DNA from: a virus
Strand: one strand, 5' to 3'
Length of the DNA stretch: 49,656 bases
Virus record (IMG/VR): IMGVR_UViG_3300044987_002599
Coordinates: 1-49,656 of that record
Numbering within the stretch: the stretch's first letter is position 1; every line of letters begins with the position of its first letter. The position numbers were made by a program, and so were the translations under genes. This document shows positions 9,405 to 26,990 of the stretch, in pieces. The notes beneath the pieces were generated by a model. That model was not told the origin of the DNA. It did no database searches and worked only from the letters and a program-made list of their open reading frames with translations.

Positions 9405-10256
9405 ATGATCGAATGTCAAATCTGCAAAAGACAATTGGGCACCTTGGTAGGTAAGCACCTCAAAAGCCATGGTTTATCAAGTCAAGAGTATCAAGAAAAA
9501 TTTCCTGGGAATCCTGTTAGCGCAATGAAGCCATGGACAGAGGAGTTGCGTGCCAAACAAAAACAAGTGCGGACTGGCAGAAAACACAGCGAAGAAACCA
9601 AACAAAAAATTGGTGTTGGTAACAAGGGTAAAATTATGCCTAGAGAAGCTGTGGAGCGGCAAAAAGAAAGTTACCAGAAATTTTTAGAGAGTAATGGTGG
9701 CAGTCCTCAAAAAGGCTACAAACGTAGTGACGAATTCAAAAAGAGAATGAGTCACATAGCACAAACTAGAGATCCTGCACTAGTGCAACAAAAGGTTGAA
9801 CAGATGTGGGCTGCACGACGCGGCAGCAAGGCTACTGATGAACAAAAAGCCCGATATTCTGAAGCTAGACTAGATTTTATTGAAAAGAACCCTGACAAAA
9901 TTATTCCCAAACTATTCAATACAAAACCAGAGCAGGAATTTGAACAAATCTTAGTCACTAAAAACATCGCCTACAGTAAGAATAAAAGGGTTGGTAACAG
10001 ATTGTTTGACTTTGTTGTAGAGGATTGCGTAATTGAGATTGATGGACCATATCATTGGAATCCATTGATGCATGGTAACAAGACAATGACATTGGAAGAG
10101 AGGACTTTATTGTTAAGGGAGATGCAAACTCGAGATGCGCTCAAAACACAACTTGCCAAAGAAAATGGGTATCGGGTTTTTAGGCTAGATGTAACAAGTT
10201 GTCTACCCAAGGATTGGTATGAAAGGCTTAAAGCACAGGGATGGGATATCTTTTAA
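9405..10256 (+). CDS. homing endonuclease, zinc-finger and Vsr/EDxHD-type nuclease
   Basis: 283-residue mobile nuclease. It starts with a MucR/Ros-like zinc finger, CQICKRQLGTLVGKHLKSHG followed by LSSQEYQEKFPG. NUMOD3-like DNA-binding repeats follow: GRKHSEETKQKIGVGNKG and a second at GYKRSDEFKKRMS. The C-terminus is a restriction-like fold of the Vsr/EDxHD type: LFDFVVEDCVIEIDGPYHW (about residues 200-218) and RDALKTQLAKENGYRVFRLD. It sits immediately downstream of the major capsid gene on the opposite strand, a usual place for T4-type homing endonucleases that spread by cutting conserved core genes. AGAG lies upstream of the ATG. It has its own perfect late promoter and ends at a bidirectional terminator. 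Confidence 0.88.
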   Translation: MIECQICKRQLGTLVGKHLKSHGLSSQEYQEKFPGNPVSAMKPWTEELRAKQKQVRTGRKHSEETKQKIGVGNKGKIMPREAVERQKESYQKFLESNGGSPQKGYKRSDEFKKRMSHIAQTRDPALVQQKVEQMWAARRGSKATDEQKARYSEARLDFIEKNPDKIIPKLFNTKPEQEFEQILVTKNIAYSKNKRVGNRLFDFVVEDCVIEIDGPYHWNPLMHGNKTMTLEERTLLLREMQTRDALKTQLAKENGYRVFRLDVTSCLPKDWYERLKAQGWDIF

Positions 10257-23042: not shown

Positions 23043-25343
23043 CTAGGCAAAGTCACCAATTATTCCAGCTGTGATACGTGCTTGTCTTGCTTGATCTTGG
23101 ATGTAGGGTGTTTGTGCTGCCACTGTGCTGTTCAAGGTAGTGACCATACCTAATAGTGCATCGTTTTGCGGTGCCATTGGTGGCGCAAGACTAGTCATAG
23201 TGGCTTGGGCTGCCACTCTACTTACAAGTGCCGCCATAGCAGAAACATATGACGTGCTGCTCGCTTGCATTTCAACAAGTGCAGTTGAATCTTGTAATAC
23301 GCTGCTGGCATCGCCAGTTTGCTCGCCCGGCTTAGCTTCTGCTGCACTTGCTGAACTTGTCCCATAGCCTGTGATGCCCCCGACTAATCCGCCAAGTAGG
23401 GCTCCTGCCAAGATACCACCAGGGCCTGCCCCTATGCCTGCAAGAGCTCCCGTTGCTGCACCGCCCAATGCACCGCCCAACCAACCATCCAAACCTACTT
23501 TACTACCTAGATATGCCCCTCCTAGTCCGCCCGCTACTCCTAGCCCGCCAGCGCCTATCAACCTGCCCCTCCCTAGTCCGCCCATAGTAGATGCTCCCTG
23601 CATAAGACCAGACATCATTCCTGTTGAGCCCAACATTGAAGTCAAACCCAAGCCTCCTCCTCCCAGTAACCGTGGTATCGCAGCTTTTAAAGCTGTACTT
23701 GCCAGCAATTTAGGCATCAATGCCACAGCAGCTCCTGTGGCTAAGGCCGAAGCTGCTCCTGACATACCACTAGCAGCCATTCCATAAAATGAGTTTGCTG
23801 CTCCTGCGCCTGCGCCAGTTGCTGCTGCCAAGGGTTCAAGAACTTTCGTAAACAAGCCCAACTGTTGTGTAGCTGCATAGAGCGCTGCCTTGAAGTCACC
23901 AGTGATACGAGCAGTATCCATAGTCACTTTTTGCATGGCAGTAGTAGCTCGATCTAAGTTTCCACCTCTGCCAGAGAAAATATTCAAAATTCTTTCCATG
24001 CCGCCAGGCCGGGCTGCTGCTGCTTGTGCCCGTTCAGCTTCTGGCAACATCTTGGCAAACATTTCTGCTCCACCAGCGTATGGCCCTCCTTGCTGTGCTT
24101 GTATTTGCAATCTCTCAGCACCAGGGCCTTCTGTCAAAGCCGTTTGAACTTGTTGCACTAAACGCATCGTATCTTCAGTAGTCCCAGTAGTCAATCCGCG
24201 AGACAGTGCTGTCATGGATGGCATCAATTCGCCCATGCTCATCATCGCCCGCGCCTGAGGATCACTAGGCATAAGGCCCATTTGCATACCTACAGCGATT
24301 CGAGCCATTGCAGGACCCATTTCACCAAACTGGCCCGCTATTACAGATTTATTGGCTTCAAGGCGTGCAGCCTCTTCAGGATTAGTTTTTCTTAACGTAC
24401 GTATACGGAGCATAATTGCTGCATCTTCCGCAGCAGCTTTTTGTCTCGCTTGTATTTCTTTTCTGTCTTTGCCTGTTAACTCAGTCAATGCAGTGAGTTC
24501 TCGCACATATTTGACTGCACCTTCTCTTTGCATTTCAGTACTCATACCATAAGCTGAGCCGCCTTTGGCTAACATATCAAGGAAAAAAGCTACAGACTCT
24601 CCTTGTTGAGAAAGGGTTTGGTTATACAAGCCAAATTCGCGTGTACTATCTTGAACCCCTCGCACCAATTTGACAAATTTTTCTTCACCAACACCACTTA
24701 TTGTTGTGCCAAACTGCCCCACAATTCCTTGAAACTCTTCCAGCTTCAACCCACTGCGGCCAACCATTTCCTGCATCTTTTCAAGGCTGCCGCCAAAAGT
24801 GACACCAGTGCTGGCCATTGCTTGAAAAGCTGGCATTCCGCTAGCAAAAATTCCCACACCGGCAGCAACTGTTGCTACAGCTTTATTCAAAAATGAGAAA
24901 CCTAAGCTAAGCTTAGTAGCATTGCCGCTTGTATCTCGAAACTTCATATCCAGGTAAGATAGGCTGCTTGTTACCCCATCATATAACTTTGTGCTGTCAA
25001 ACTTGCTCACCCTCTCCAAGCTGGATCGCAAGTCATCTACACTGCGTTTGTAACTGCCTTGAATCTCCTTATCAAAATCTTGCATGCGCTGCTCATGACG
25101 CAGCTTATTGACTTCTGCACGTTTGGATTTTTCAGCCTCTATTTGAAGTTTAGTCAAGCCACTGGCTGCATCCCCTAAGGCTTCGTTGAATTCTTGCAGA
25201 TTGGCCAAGTCTTCTTGTTTGACATCAGCTATTTTGGCCAAAAGCTTGTTGCTAGTGCTAACTTTGTCGCGCAGCTCTGCCAAGGTGCGATCTTGCGCCC
25301 AATTCTTGCTGATAGTTGTTAACTCACTAGCTGTAACATTCAT
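23043..25343 (-). CDS. tape-measure-like tail protein
   Basis: 766-residue protein with the composition of a tail tape measure: an N-terminal coiled-coil (about residues 5-130), a central helical region with DVFGGSLEKMQEM-like segments (for example FGGSLEKMQEMVGRSGLKLE), and a long Ala/Gly/Met-rich hydrophobic stretch (about 520-680, GGLGGAYLGSKVGLDGWLGG) that could insert in membrane at ejection. T4 gp29, its functional counterpart, has 590 residues. I chose the ATG at 25343 because a late-promoter core CTTAAATA lies 30 bases upstream; longer frames start at 25373 and 25394, inside or past the promoter. Position beside the baseplate hub assembly gene gp26 fits. An internal head protein is the alternative. 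Confidence 0.65.
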   Translation of the reverse strand: MNVTASELTTISKNWAQDRTLAELRDKVSTSNKLLAKIADVKQEDLANLQEFNEALGDAASGLTKLQIEAEKSKRAEVNKLRHEQRMQDFDKEIQGSYKRSVDDLRSSLERVSKFDSTKLYDGVTSSLSYLDMKFRDTSGNATKLSLGFSFLNKAVATVAAGVGIFASGMPAFQAMASTGVTFGGSLEKMQEMVGRSGLKLEEFQGIVGQFGTTISGVGEEKFVKLVRGVQDSTREFGLYNQTLSQQGESVAFFLDMLAKGGSAYGMSTEMQREGAVKYVRELTALTELTGKDRKEIQARQKAAAEDAAIMLRIRTLRKTNPEEAARLEANKSVIAGQFGEMGPAMARIAVGMQMGLMPSDPQARAMMSMGELMPSMTALSRGLTTGTTEDTMRLVQQVQTALTEGPGAERLQIQAQQGGPYAGGAEMFAKMLPEAERAQAAAARPGGMERILNIFSGRGGNLDRATTAMQKVTMDTARITGDFKAALYAATQQLGLFTKVLEPLAAATGAGAGAANSFYGMAASGMSGAASALATGAAVALMPKLLASTALKAAIPRLLGGGGLGLTSMLGSTGMMSGLMQGASTMGGLGRGRLIGAGGLGVAGGLGGAYLGSKVGLDGWLGGALGGAATGALAGIGAGPGGILAGALLGGLVGGITGYGTSSASAAEAKPGEQTGDASSVLQDSTALVEMQASSTSYVSAMAALVSRVAAQATMTSLAPPMAPQNDALLGMVTTLNSTVAAQTPYIQDQARQARITAGIIGDFA

Positions 25344-25372
25344 ACAAATTTCTCGCAATAGGAGACTAGCCA

Positions 25373-25380
25373 TATTTAAG
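25373..25380 (-). promoter_or_regulatory. late-promoter-like CTTAAATA (divergent pair, minus)
   Basis: The minus-strand octamer CTTAAATA lies 30 bases upstream of the chosen tape-measure start. Three bases away, on the other strand, lies the late-promoter core of gp26, so the two units share one divergent late-promoter region. Confidence 0.5.
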
Positions 25381-25383
25381 CCC

Positions 25384-25391
25384 CGTAAATA
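25384..25391 (+). promoter_or_regulatory. late-promoter-like CGTAAATA (divergent pair, plus)
   Basis: The plus-strand octamer CGTAAATA lies 37 bases upstream of the gp26 ATG, back to back with the tape-measure promoter. Confidence 0.5.
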
Positions 25392-25427
25392 CAAGGAAAT
25401 AAAACGCTAAGATTATAAGGCAGCCCG

Positions 25428-26261
25428 ATGACTAATCCGTTAAGTCAATATTTTCACACTCCCAAAGCCTACGCCCAATTGCCTACCCGCGGCAAATTTT
25501 ACACCAGTGACTTTTTAACTTTGGCAGTAAATGGAGAAATTGCAGTGTATCCACTCACAGCAATTGATCAAATCATGCTGAAAACTCCTGATGCAATGTT
25601 GAACGGTGACGCATTGTTGAGTGTGTTCAGGAATTGTGTGCCTGGCGTAAAAGATCCAAAAAAGCTTGTTGAGCCTGATATCAACACACTGCTTGTGGCA
25701 ATACGTATTGCCAGTTCTGGTCCAACAATGGAAGTGGATACCAAGTGCCCAAGCTGTGGAAAAGAGCACAACTTTGGCATTGATTTAAGTGTATTTATTG
25801 AAACTCAGAGCTATGTGGACGGGCCCTGTTATGTGGAAATAGATGGCGCCTTACAAGTTTTCCTGCGTCCTTACAATTTTGAACAACGGAATTTACAGCT
25901 ACTAAACGAGGTTGAGCAAGCTCGTAGTATTCGAACTCTTGAAGAAACTGACACCACTGATGCAGAAAAAATCAGCAGCGTAACAAAACAAGTGAGCCGG
26001 ATGGCGCAGCGCACATTGGACATCATGGCCATGAGCATAACTGAAATCAAAATAATCAGTAGTGGTGAAATGGTCACCAATCAAGAATACATTCAAGAGT
26101 TTGTGAAAGGTATTCCCACAACCAGTGCCAACGCCATCATCGACAAGTTGAAAGAGCTCAACAAAACTGGTATTGATACCGAAACCTCTTTTCAATGCGA
26201 CGGTTGCTCACACACTTGGAGCCAGTCAATTGACTTTGATCCCACAAGTTTTTTCGACTAA
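25428..26261 (+). CDS. 26: baseplate hub assembly protein gp26
   Basis: 277-residue T4 gp26-type protein (T4 baseplate protein family), a chaperone-like factor for assembly of the central baseplate hub. Typical blocks: KAYAQLPTRGKFY near the start, YPLTAIDQIMLKTPDAMLNG, PDINTLLVAIRIASSG, a zinc-ribbon half Cys107-x2-Cys110 (KCPSCGKEHNFGID), VFLRPYNFEQRNLQ, YIQEFVKGIPTTSANAIIDK, and a second Cys pair at 257/260 (CDGCSHTW) before IDFDPTSFFD. AAGG lies 7 bases before the ATG. Its last codons contain a TTTTTTC slippery heptamer, and the -1 frame continues into the gp51-like region, so a minor 355-residue gp26-gp51-like fusion is predicted. Confidence 0.92.
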   Translation: MTNPLSQYFHTPKAYAQLPTRGKFYTSDFLTLAVNGEIAVYPLTAIDQIMLKTPDAMLNGDALLSVFRNCVPGVKDPKKLVEPDINTLLVAIRIASSGPTMEVDTKCPSCGKEHNFGIDLSVFIETQSYVDGPCYVEIDGALQVFLRPYNFEQRNLQLLNEVEQARSIRTLEETDTTDAEKISSVTKQVSRMAQRTLDIMAMSITEIKIISSGEMVTNQEYIQEFVKGIPTTSANAIIDKLKELNKTGIDTETSFQCDGCSHTWSQSIDFDPTSFFD

Positions 26262-26309
26262 AGCTTCTCAGGGGTGATCCTGTAGCCATCACCCAAATAC
26301 TGAGAAGCT
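26249..26309 (+). promoter_or_regulatory. programmed -1 ribosomal frameshift signal
   Basis: The heptamer T TTT TTC (26249-26255) is in the correct phase (X XXY YYZ) for the gp26 frame. A 6-base spacer that contains the gp26 stop codon follows, then a composite hairpin. The outer stem is 10 bp (26262-26271 with 26300-26309) and the inner stem 7 bp (26272-26278 with 26288-26294), with a 9-base loop and a 5-base bulge; all pairs are Watson-Crick. The -1 frame is open from 26240 through 26491. All standard elements of bacterial/phage -1 frameshifting are therefore present. Confidence 0.8.
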
Positions 26310-26494
26310 GTGAAAAAGAAGTGGAAATGATTGAAAGCGATATTGCCAACCTAGTGTATTACATGAACGGAGGACTCACCTACAGTGAAGCTTGGCGTCT
26401 CACCACTTCACAGATGAAATCTTTGAGTGGAACTATTTCCAAACACTATGAGATGCAAGCCGAAGCTTATAGGAAGGCTCAATCAAAGAAGTGA
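26252..26494 (+). CDS. gp51-like baseplate hub assembly frame, reached by -1 frameshift
   Basis: Open frame in -1 phase to gp26, reading RLKLLRGDPVAITQ and on through NLVYYMNGGLTYSEAWRLTT, ending in a Lys-rich tail at 26492-26494. The YYMNGGL-x-x-x-EAW motif is of the kind seen after gp26 in T4-like phages (gene 51, baseplate hub assembly catalyst). The frame has no ATG before 26327, and neither that ATG nor the GTG at 26321 has a Shine-Dalgarno, while protein-like sequence extends well upstream. So the product is most likely a gp26 fusion (276 gp26 residues plus 79), as with lambda gpG-gpGT tail chaperones. A separate 55-residue protein from 26327 is the alternative. Assignment to gp51 is from motif and position only. 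Confidence 0.65.
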   Translation, partial: FRLKLLRGDPVAITQILRSCEKEVEMIESDIANLVYYMNGGLTYSEAWRLTTSQMKSLSGTISKHYEMQAEAYRKAQSKK

Positions 26495-26594
26495 TAATTT
26501 TAGCTGGGCGTGATCTGGTATGAATCTCAATGATCTTATTGATGATATTATTGGATCTGGAATAGGATACTTGTTGGACTGATAATAGTTCTGG

Positions 26595-26990
26595 GTATTT
26601 CGTTAGGGAGGAAGTCACACTTCTCCCCACCGGGAGGAGAAGTTTGAAAAGGCTTTCGTATAGGGCTTCGGCCTGCCTGTCTCGTCTTGGGAATTGCTTC
26701 CAGCTGGCGGAGAACCTATTTCCAGCGTTCCTGACTCTCTTCTCGGACTTATGCTCATGGAGCTGCCTTCTCGGTTATGTGCTCATCACACACGCAGGGA
26801 ATTCAGTCAGACAGGCTGTTGACTGAACCCCTTCCAGCTTCACGGGACAGTGAGAGGCTGGATCCTTTTTGTTCACTTTTGTGGCGAGGGCATAGAACCG
26901 TAAACCCTCATACGCAATTTTCCCCGGCCTTCGCGCCTGGTAGATACGGATGGACACTACACCATCATATAAAGCCACTATGTTTTAAAA
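26595..26990 (+). ncRNA. candidate large structured non-coding RNA
   Basis: Between the gp51-like frame and the convergent 27001-27810 gene lie about 500 bases with no convincing coding frame, more GC-rich than the neighbours, and full of inverted repeats. Stems seen: 26619-26626/26636-26643 (8 bp); a C(UUCG)G tetraloop hairpin at 26664-26673; GCTGG/CCAGC 26703-26707/26722-26726; 26802-26809/26820-26827 (8 bp); TCCAGC/GCTGGA 26833-26838/26857-26862 with inner TCAC/GTGA; GAGGG/CCCTC 26886-26890/26905-26909; GATGG/CCATC 26949-26953/26962-26966. The loop bases 26810-26816 (GACAGGC) are complementary to 26675-26681 (GCCTGTC), a possible 7-bp pseudoknot. The UUCG loop favours the plus strand. I cannot name the class: GOLLD, HEARO/omega RNA, group I intron remnants and novel phage RNAs should be compared. 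No intron core, tRNA or IscB-like gene is evident nearby. Confidence 0.55.

Follow-up and report, generated by a model that had tools for sequence, protein, structure and literature searches.

The window analysed in this study is a 49,656-base stretch of viral DNA (record IMGVR_UViG_3300044987_002599), and it carries a homologue of T4 gene 26 together with the features listed in Table 1. This homologue matches 64 phage records, at 25.7-34.2% identity among the 60 matches listed, and 57 of these 60 records exceed 280 kb. By sequence, the window comes from a relative of the large myoviruses of the RaK2/PA5oct type. Genes for a portal protein and for SbcC/SbcD-like nuclease subunits are found near the gene-26 homologue, and elsewhere in the window an HNH/homing endonuclease-like gene lies at 9405-10256 on the plus strand (phrog_314, E 4e-9).

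Table 1. Positions of the features at the gene-26 locus of the window.
Feature	Position	Strand	Description or basis
Divergent neighbour, 783 aa, candidate tape measure protein	23043..25394	-	Gly/Ala-rich hydrophobic stretch; inferred
Gene-26 homologue, short form (TAC-N), 277 aa	25428..26261	+	TAA stop 26259-26261; PF12322, phrog_150
Slippery heptamer T_TTT_TTC	26249..26255	+	X_XXY_YYZ phase of the zero frame; read from sequence
6-nt spacer GACTAA, including the zero-frame stop	26256..26261	+	Sequence
-1 frame extension, 79 residues, predicted C-terminal domain of the long form (TAC-NC)	26255..26494	+	CGA 26255 to AAG 26491, TGA 26492-26494
Composite hairpin, probable stimulator	26262..26309	+	10 bp (26262-26271/26300-26309) + 7 bp (26272-26278/26288-26294), 9-nt loop

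The protein encoded by the zero frame, TAC-N, matches PF12322 (T4_baseplate) with an E of 9e-17 and 61.9 bits, against a curated cut-off of 24.5, and phrog_150 (baseplate hub) with an E of 2e-20. AlphaFold2 predicts a confident fold for this short form (pLDDT 90.6). A Foldseek search of the solved structures in the PDB returned no significant relatives for it. In a follow-up structure comparison the listed matches had Z < 8, and the VIA rows for TAC-N mostly spanned only residues 133-236. Among predicted viral proteins, TAC-N gave 57 matches at E <= 0.001, several of which are named baseplate hub proteins.

The 3' end of this gp26-like reading frame is AGT TTT TTC GAC TAA. The original prediction had proposed a complete -1 frameshift cassette at this point, comprising the heptamer TTTTTTC in the correct phase, a six-base spacer that holds the gp26 stop, a hairpin of 10 + 7 pairs, and an open -1 frame that would yield a fusion of 355 residues. 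Each of these elements was found, exactly to the base. The -1 frame is open from 26240, immediately after a TGA at 26237-26239, to the TGA given in Table 1, and the fusion product would comprise 276 + 79 = 355 residues. The hairpin begins after the six-base spacer, i.e. at the classical spacing of about 5-9 nt, and the fold of 26256-26320 has a minimum free energy of -24.3 kcal/mol and a z of -4.5, a stability equalled by none of 200 shuffles.

The -1 frame is under protein-coding selection. When the window was compared with the related contig L007 over 228 nt from 26264, codon changes in the -1 frame were 15 synonymous and 11 non-synonymous, as opposed to 2/27 (synonymous/non-synonymous) when frame 0 is read and 4/24 for frame +1. 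AlphaFold2 models the -1 segment confidently as all-helical (pLDDT 90.1). Against predicted viral proteins, the -1 domain had one match at E <= 0.001, an uncharacterised phage protein (E 4e-5); the weaker rows include phage Moogle's 'tape measure chaperone' (E 0.5), which is no proof of kinship. No family in PHROGs matched the -1 frame of the window's lineage (best E 0.09).

The signal is conserved among relatives. In the 12 closest contigs (L001-L012; protein identities of 100, 91 and 84%, and one of 51%), TTTTTTC, a stop one codon further on and the -1 frame are all retained. A wider group of 16 loci was made up of L012, itself one of these 12 contigs, and 15 phage records chosen by hand among the 64 matching (60 listed): PA5oct, Phosso, Munch, Atu_ph07, 121Q, XaC1, RaK2, SCTP-2, CM1, XacN1, CBB, GAP32, XbC2, Kaldavass and Serratia phage BF. 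All 16 have an in-phase heptamer (14 TTTTTTC, 2 TTTTTTT) and an open -1 frame, with the zero-frame stop 3-33 nt past the heptamer and the -1 frame running for 59-80 further codons. The sample was extended by further searches with query peptides that do not overlap the slip site; two of these searches each covered the best 80 of 591 confirmed stretches. Among the best 80 of 591 in the jumbo-type search, an in-phase heptamer and an open -1 frame are present in 68/68 distinct loci (58 TTTTTTC, 8 AAATTTT and 2 TTTTTTT), 12 of the 80 having been excluded as duplicate site regions. The -1 extension is 68-90 codons long in those 66 jumbo-type loci whose contigs run past it. The cyanophage/KVP40-type queries gave 82 loci (best 80 of 591 in one search), two of them excluded as duplicates, and TTTTTTC 3 nt before the stop with an open -1 frame occurs in 80/80 distinct loci. 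Four loci whose contigs end within the -1 frame (L056, L081, L135 and L183) are included in the counts.

Among T4-like records outside the jumbo group, 7 of the 8 that we chose from the 60 listed of 1853 contain an in-phase heptamer (6 TTTTTTC, and TTTTTTG in Rhizobium phage RL2RES). The exception is the Ackermannviridae phage GG32, which has an open -1 frame and no canonical heptamer, and in which another slip sequence or mechanism may operate. By eye, the -1 frame of this Salmonella phage (L035, 2932-3117) looks like the gp51 C-terminal domain. In the database records viewed, the recoding signal is unannotated; where the predicted fusion would be expected, they show either a 'gp51' cut short, or a hypothetical gene, or no gene at all. 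In two cyanophage loci (L030 3274-3369 and L031 3277-3372), 'gp51' is annotated as a 96-base ORF from an internal ATG. The conserved cyanophage -1 frame begins at the slip site, about 35 codons ahead of this ATG, and the annotated 'gp51' in these two loci is therefore probably a truncated piece of the fusion.

Three other accounts of the site were rejected. Chance occurrence of the slip site is rejected by its conservation in 16/16, 68/68 and 80/80 loci. A protein constraint for the FF dipeptide alone, T-rich by chance, is rejected by the FF dipeptides elsewhere in the jumbo-type loci, of which only 21/151 are encoded by T_TTT_TT[C/T] in a control that also takes in non-genic open frames, versus 60/68 at the site, where the other 8 are A_AAT_TTT. 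A +1 frameshift is rejected because the +1 extension exceeds 20 codons in only 8/68 distinct loci, with a maximum of 46.

The downstream hairpin was examined for covariation in 8 hand-picked related sequences, with the window's own structure as the one tested. In these sequences 87.5% of the cells are paired, both sides have changed in 9/17 pairs, and the covariation score is 0.437 as compared to 0.215 for shuffled alignments, with 0/500 shuffles reaching the score. Because the stem is kept with compensatory changes and is beaten by no shuffle, we take it to be real and stimulator-like in the branch to which the window belongs. In the jumbo-type set the 60 nt 3' of the heptamer have a mean z of -2.15 (n=67, 51% below -2), versus -0.21 for control stretches 120 nt further on (n=66, 6% below -2). 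A strong stem is missing from some jumbo-type loci, e.g. L074, L105 and L115. Downstream structure in the cyanophages is weak: the cyanophage/KVP40-type set has a mean z of -1.06 (n=78, 24% below -2), with a control of -0.48 (9%). The original prediction had called for an alignment of gp26 3' ends from related phages, and had asked whether the fusion is a peculiarity of this phage or a general property. Heptamer and open -1 frame recur in every locus of the three sets and the stem covaries in the 8 sequences; the frameshift signal is general in the gene-26 relatives sampled.

The -1 frame could also be read as a separate small gene, translated from its own start or through termination-reinitiation where start and stop codons overlap. 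Public records do annotate it in this way, with separate -1 ORFs in Phosso, 121Q, CBB, GAP32 and V09 among others, and with an ATG that overlaps the stop in some of them. Among the 68 distinct jumbo-type loci (best 80 of 591), an ATG, GTG or TTG in the -1 frame lies within 15 nt of the stop in 19, and an ATG does so in 7; however, near the stop any such start is lacking in 49/68, and an ATG in 61/68. The window has -1 starts of its own at GTG 26321 and ATG 26327, but the first of these is about 23 codons past the slip site. The frame is already open and alignable with relatives ahead of that start, in agreement with the predicted protein-like sequence before the first ATG. The companion claim, that the first ATG at 26327 has no Shine-Dalgarno sequence, holds as to the position of the ATG and needs amendment otherwise, since a GTG start precedes it and a purine-rich AAAAAGAAG lies upstream of both, so that 'no strong Shine-Dalgarno' is safer than 'none'. 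Reinitiation, moreover, requires neither the heptamer nor a covarying hairpin, and we regard a separate gene as very improbable. Joining of the two frames by transcriptional rather than ribosomal slippage is even less probable: the heptamer includes a run of six T, and longer T runs promote polymerase slippage, but the A_AAT_TTT found in 8/68 distinct loci (best 80 of 591) suits tandem tRNA slippage with a T run of only five, TTTTTTC keeps a single codon phase in 58/68 jumbo-type and 80/80 cyanophage/KVP40-type loci (searches that covered the best 80 of 591), and an RNA hairpin is kept at classical spacing in the jumbo-type set.

The comparison with T4 places the predicted ribosomal frameshifting at this locus in a family context. 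T4 gp26 and gp51 both match PF12322, over residues 1-206 of 208 and 1-201 of 249, respectively, and their genes are divergently oriented. The last 100 nt of T4 genes 26 and 51 hold no in-phase heptamer, as would be expected with a separate gene for each form. The fused jumbo-type and fused cyanophage/KVP40-type profiles align with each other across the junction and the C-domain (probability 99.3%, E 9.5e-21). In turn, the alignment of the fused cyanophage-type profile with T4 gp51 reaches residue 244 of its 249 (E 9.2e-11), FF-R falling at gp51 VF-K (199-201), and that with T4 gp26 stops at the terminal FFEL of gp26 (E 7.8e-17). These alignments are collinear, and therefore the short form appears to correspond to gp26 and, by way of the cyanophage/KVP40-type set, the long form to gp51 in layout: the short form ends at the conserved FF and the long form runs on into a C-terminal domain. 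The family phrog_634, 'baseplate hub assembly catalyst', matches the -1 frames of cyanophages (E 3.6e-30), KVP40-type phages (1.3e-21) and the Rhizobium phage (1.1e-15), and that of Moby at E 0.031; residues 147-246 of T4 gp51 also match it.

The direct comparisons with the window's own family were not significant. The -1 segment of this family, compared directly with T4 gp51 by hhalign, gave a probability of 0.7%, and the jumbo fusion aligned with gp51 over part of the N-terminal domain only (probability 12%), with no significance in the C-domain. The kinship of the window's C-domain to gp51 would thus run along a chain through the cyanophage/KVP40-type set. The label 'gp51-like' is borne out by the whole-fusion profile alignment through that set, and not by the -1 segment taken directly. 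A novel fusion of two unrelated genes is not supported: T4 gp26 and gp51 are paralogues within PF12322, and gp51 already has the long-form layout and gp26 that of the short form. Where T4 has two paralogous, divergent genes without an in-phase heptamer in their last 100 nt, the window appears to have one gene, from which frameshifting would make both products.

A 2022 study by Vladimirov, Gautam and Davidson (Virology 566:9-15) reportedly dealt with the tail assembly chaperones of T4-like phages, and its title names a mechanism other than frameshifting. Going by papers that cite it, the frameshift idea is already published for T4-like phages, and its kind, the lambda gpG/gpGT scheme, is not new. 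The PRFect paper, citing Vladimirov et al. 2022, relates that in some T4-like phages two gene copies, one short and one long, take the place of a frameshift (PMC10885494), and the phage Adele paper cites the same work for poly-T frameshift signals in T4-like TAC-N genes (PMC12846349). The TAC loci of Vandenendeviridae and Andersonviridae, with the motif GTTTTT, resemble the present one in having an open -1 frame and a poly-T motif at the end of TAC-N, and in a downstream frame that public records list as a hypothetical gene of its own; they belong to other phage families, and the passage on TACs names no downstream hairpin (PMC12846349). In lambda, likewise, a -1 frameshift close to the 3' end of the short gene yields two products; neither of them is in the virion, the long form links the tape measure to the tail tube protein, and the scheme is stated to be widely conserved 'except T4' (PMC5009743). 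The parallel to lambda that had been drawn for the window is supported by the conserved signal joining gene 26 to its downstream frame. The likeness is one of scheme; in the window, T_TTT_TTC is combined with a strong covarying hairpin. Nothing on frameshifting in RaK2-type jumbo phages was found in open-licence PubMed Central texts, and 'frameshift' has 0 occurrences in the papers on Atu_ph07, CBB, XacN1, Erwinia Eneladusvirus and RsoM2USA in that collection. XaC1 and XbC2 are both reported to encode a tail assembly chaperone, in a text from which the word frameshift is absent (PMC11273794). There is good support for counting the jumbo branch and its covarying hairpin as a new member of the TAC frameshift class.

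Taken together, the locus is very probably a tail-assembly-chaperone gene read in two ways, as the short TAC-N and as a -1 frameshifted long TAC-NC, and the two predicted products would share their N-terminus. What the sequences show is a conserved signal in the right phase, a hairpin that covaries, coding selection on the -1 frame and, for the family and by way of the cyanophage/KVP40-type set, a short and a long form collinear with gp26 and gp51 of T4. From this we infer slippage itself, its efficiency and the chaperone action. The majority of ribosomes would stop at 26259-26261 and release the gp26-like short form. A minority, slowed by the hairpin 3' of the six-base spacer, would slip one base back, with two Phe-tRNAs re-pairing on U_UUU_UUC, and would go on to produce TAC-NC, with its gp51-like layout and extra helical C-terminal segment. 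As with gpG and gpGT of lambda, the tape measure protein may then be bound by many copies of the short form and few of the long one, whose C-terminal segment may recruit the tail tube protein, after which both forms would depart. Binding of the tape measure and tail tube proteins by the predicted chaperone forms is proposed here by analogy.

The candidate tape measure protein would be the product of the divergent neighbour. Of the 15 phage records viewed, 12 have a divergent gene of more than 2 kb at the same place; Atu_ph07 and XacN1 have no such gene, and the CM1 record is without annotation. The neighbour in the window gave no significant match in family searches and shows weak similarity to CBB_251 (E 2e-4), the divergent neighbour in phage CBB. 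In the virion table of phage CBB, CBB_251 is well covered, with 29 and 50.14 in its columns, and CBB_247 is followed directly by CBB_251; the table lacks the gene-26 homologue CBB_250 and the -1 ORF CBB_249, the latter not occurring in the text of that paper (PMC5259590). Absence of both from the virion table would be expected of chaperones, although these are data of a relative. The CBB record labels CBB_250 'structural protein', and the paper in one sentence calls an 894-aa gp5-like protein CBB_250, where CBB_240 was probably intended (PMC5259590). The PA5oct record has an ESI-MS/MS note on the divergent neighbour and none on the gene-26 homologue. As indirect evidence, the CBB and PA5oct data are compatible with a chaperone and its tape measure protein. 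According to a review of T4, genetic studies support gp26 as part of the hub (PMC3004832), and a purely transient chaperone fits less well with such a role.

A second structured element was observed in this region. About 390 nt of strongly structured sequence with no convincing gene lie directly 3' of the frameshifted gene (26592-26985, plus strand), with counterparts in L007 (1265-1665), L012 (6091-6480) and L040 (3070-3480). The window and L007 are identical at 370/384 aligned positions of this stretch (96%), versus 84% for their gene-26 proteins, and the stretch is recognisable in L012 and L040 at 53-54% identity. The consensus structure has kept double changes in 21/63 pairs, and the stored structure covaries (0/500 shuffles) in an alignment fitted to that structure. 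A covariance model of the first 147 positions was found in 11/80 sources searched, a sample of 80 loci with cyanophage-type ones left out: the four that built the model, L038, which is close to the window, and six others (E 3e-9 to 1.4e-3). All of these matches are on the same strand and start about 250-390 nt past the heptamer. The 5' part is thus also seen in L038, L042, L043, L045, L046, L048 and L055. A search of the whole window against Rfam gave nothing at the gathering threshold, and the sub-threshold match in this region is PtaRNA1 (E 0.035). In the window's jumbo-phage group, this stretch probably represents a non-coding RNA, or an element of a 3' region, that is so far undescribed. 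Stretches of about 660-840 nt without annotated genes also occur after or near the -1 ORF in L018 (3537-4374), L024 (3543-4330), L025 (3543-4348), L028 (3543-4347), L016 (3540-4224) and L014 (4031-4695), and the window-group RNA model finds no match in them.

As for the history of the two-product gene, we lean slightly towards a frameshift of gene 26 that is ancestral to the T4 superfamily, including the jumbo, cyanophage and KVP40 branches. T4, the sole phage having 26 and 51 as separate genes in which the ends of these genes were checked, would then be derived, by duplication and loss of the slip site. The covarying hairpin of the jumbo phages, whether evolved or kept, would set the ratio of short to long form, and the cyanophages would use the heptamer with much weaker structure. 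This ratio becomes testable through mutations of the heptamer or the hairpin in a culturable relative.
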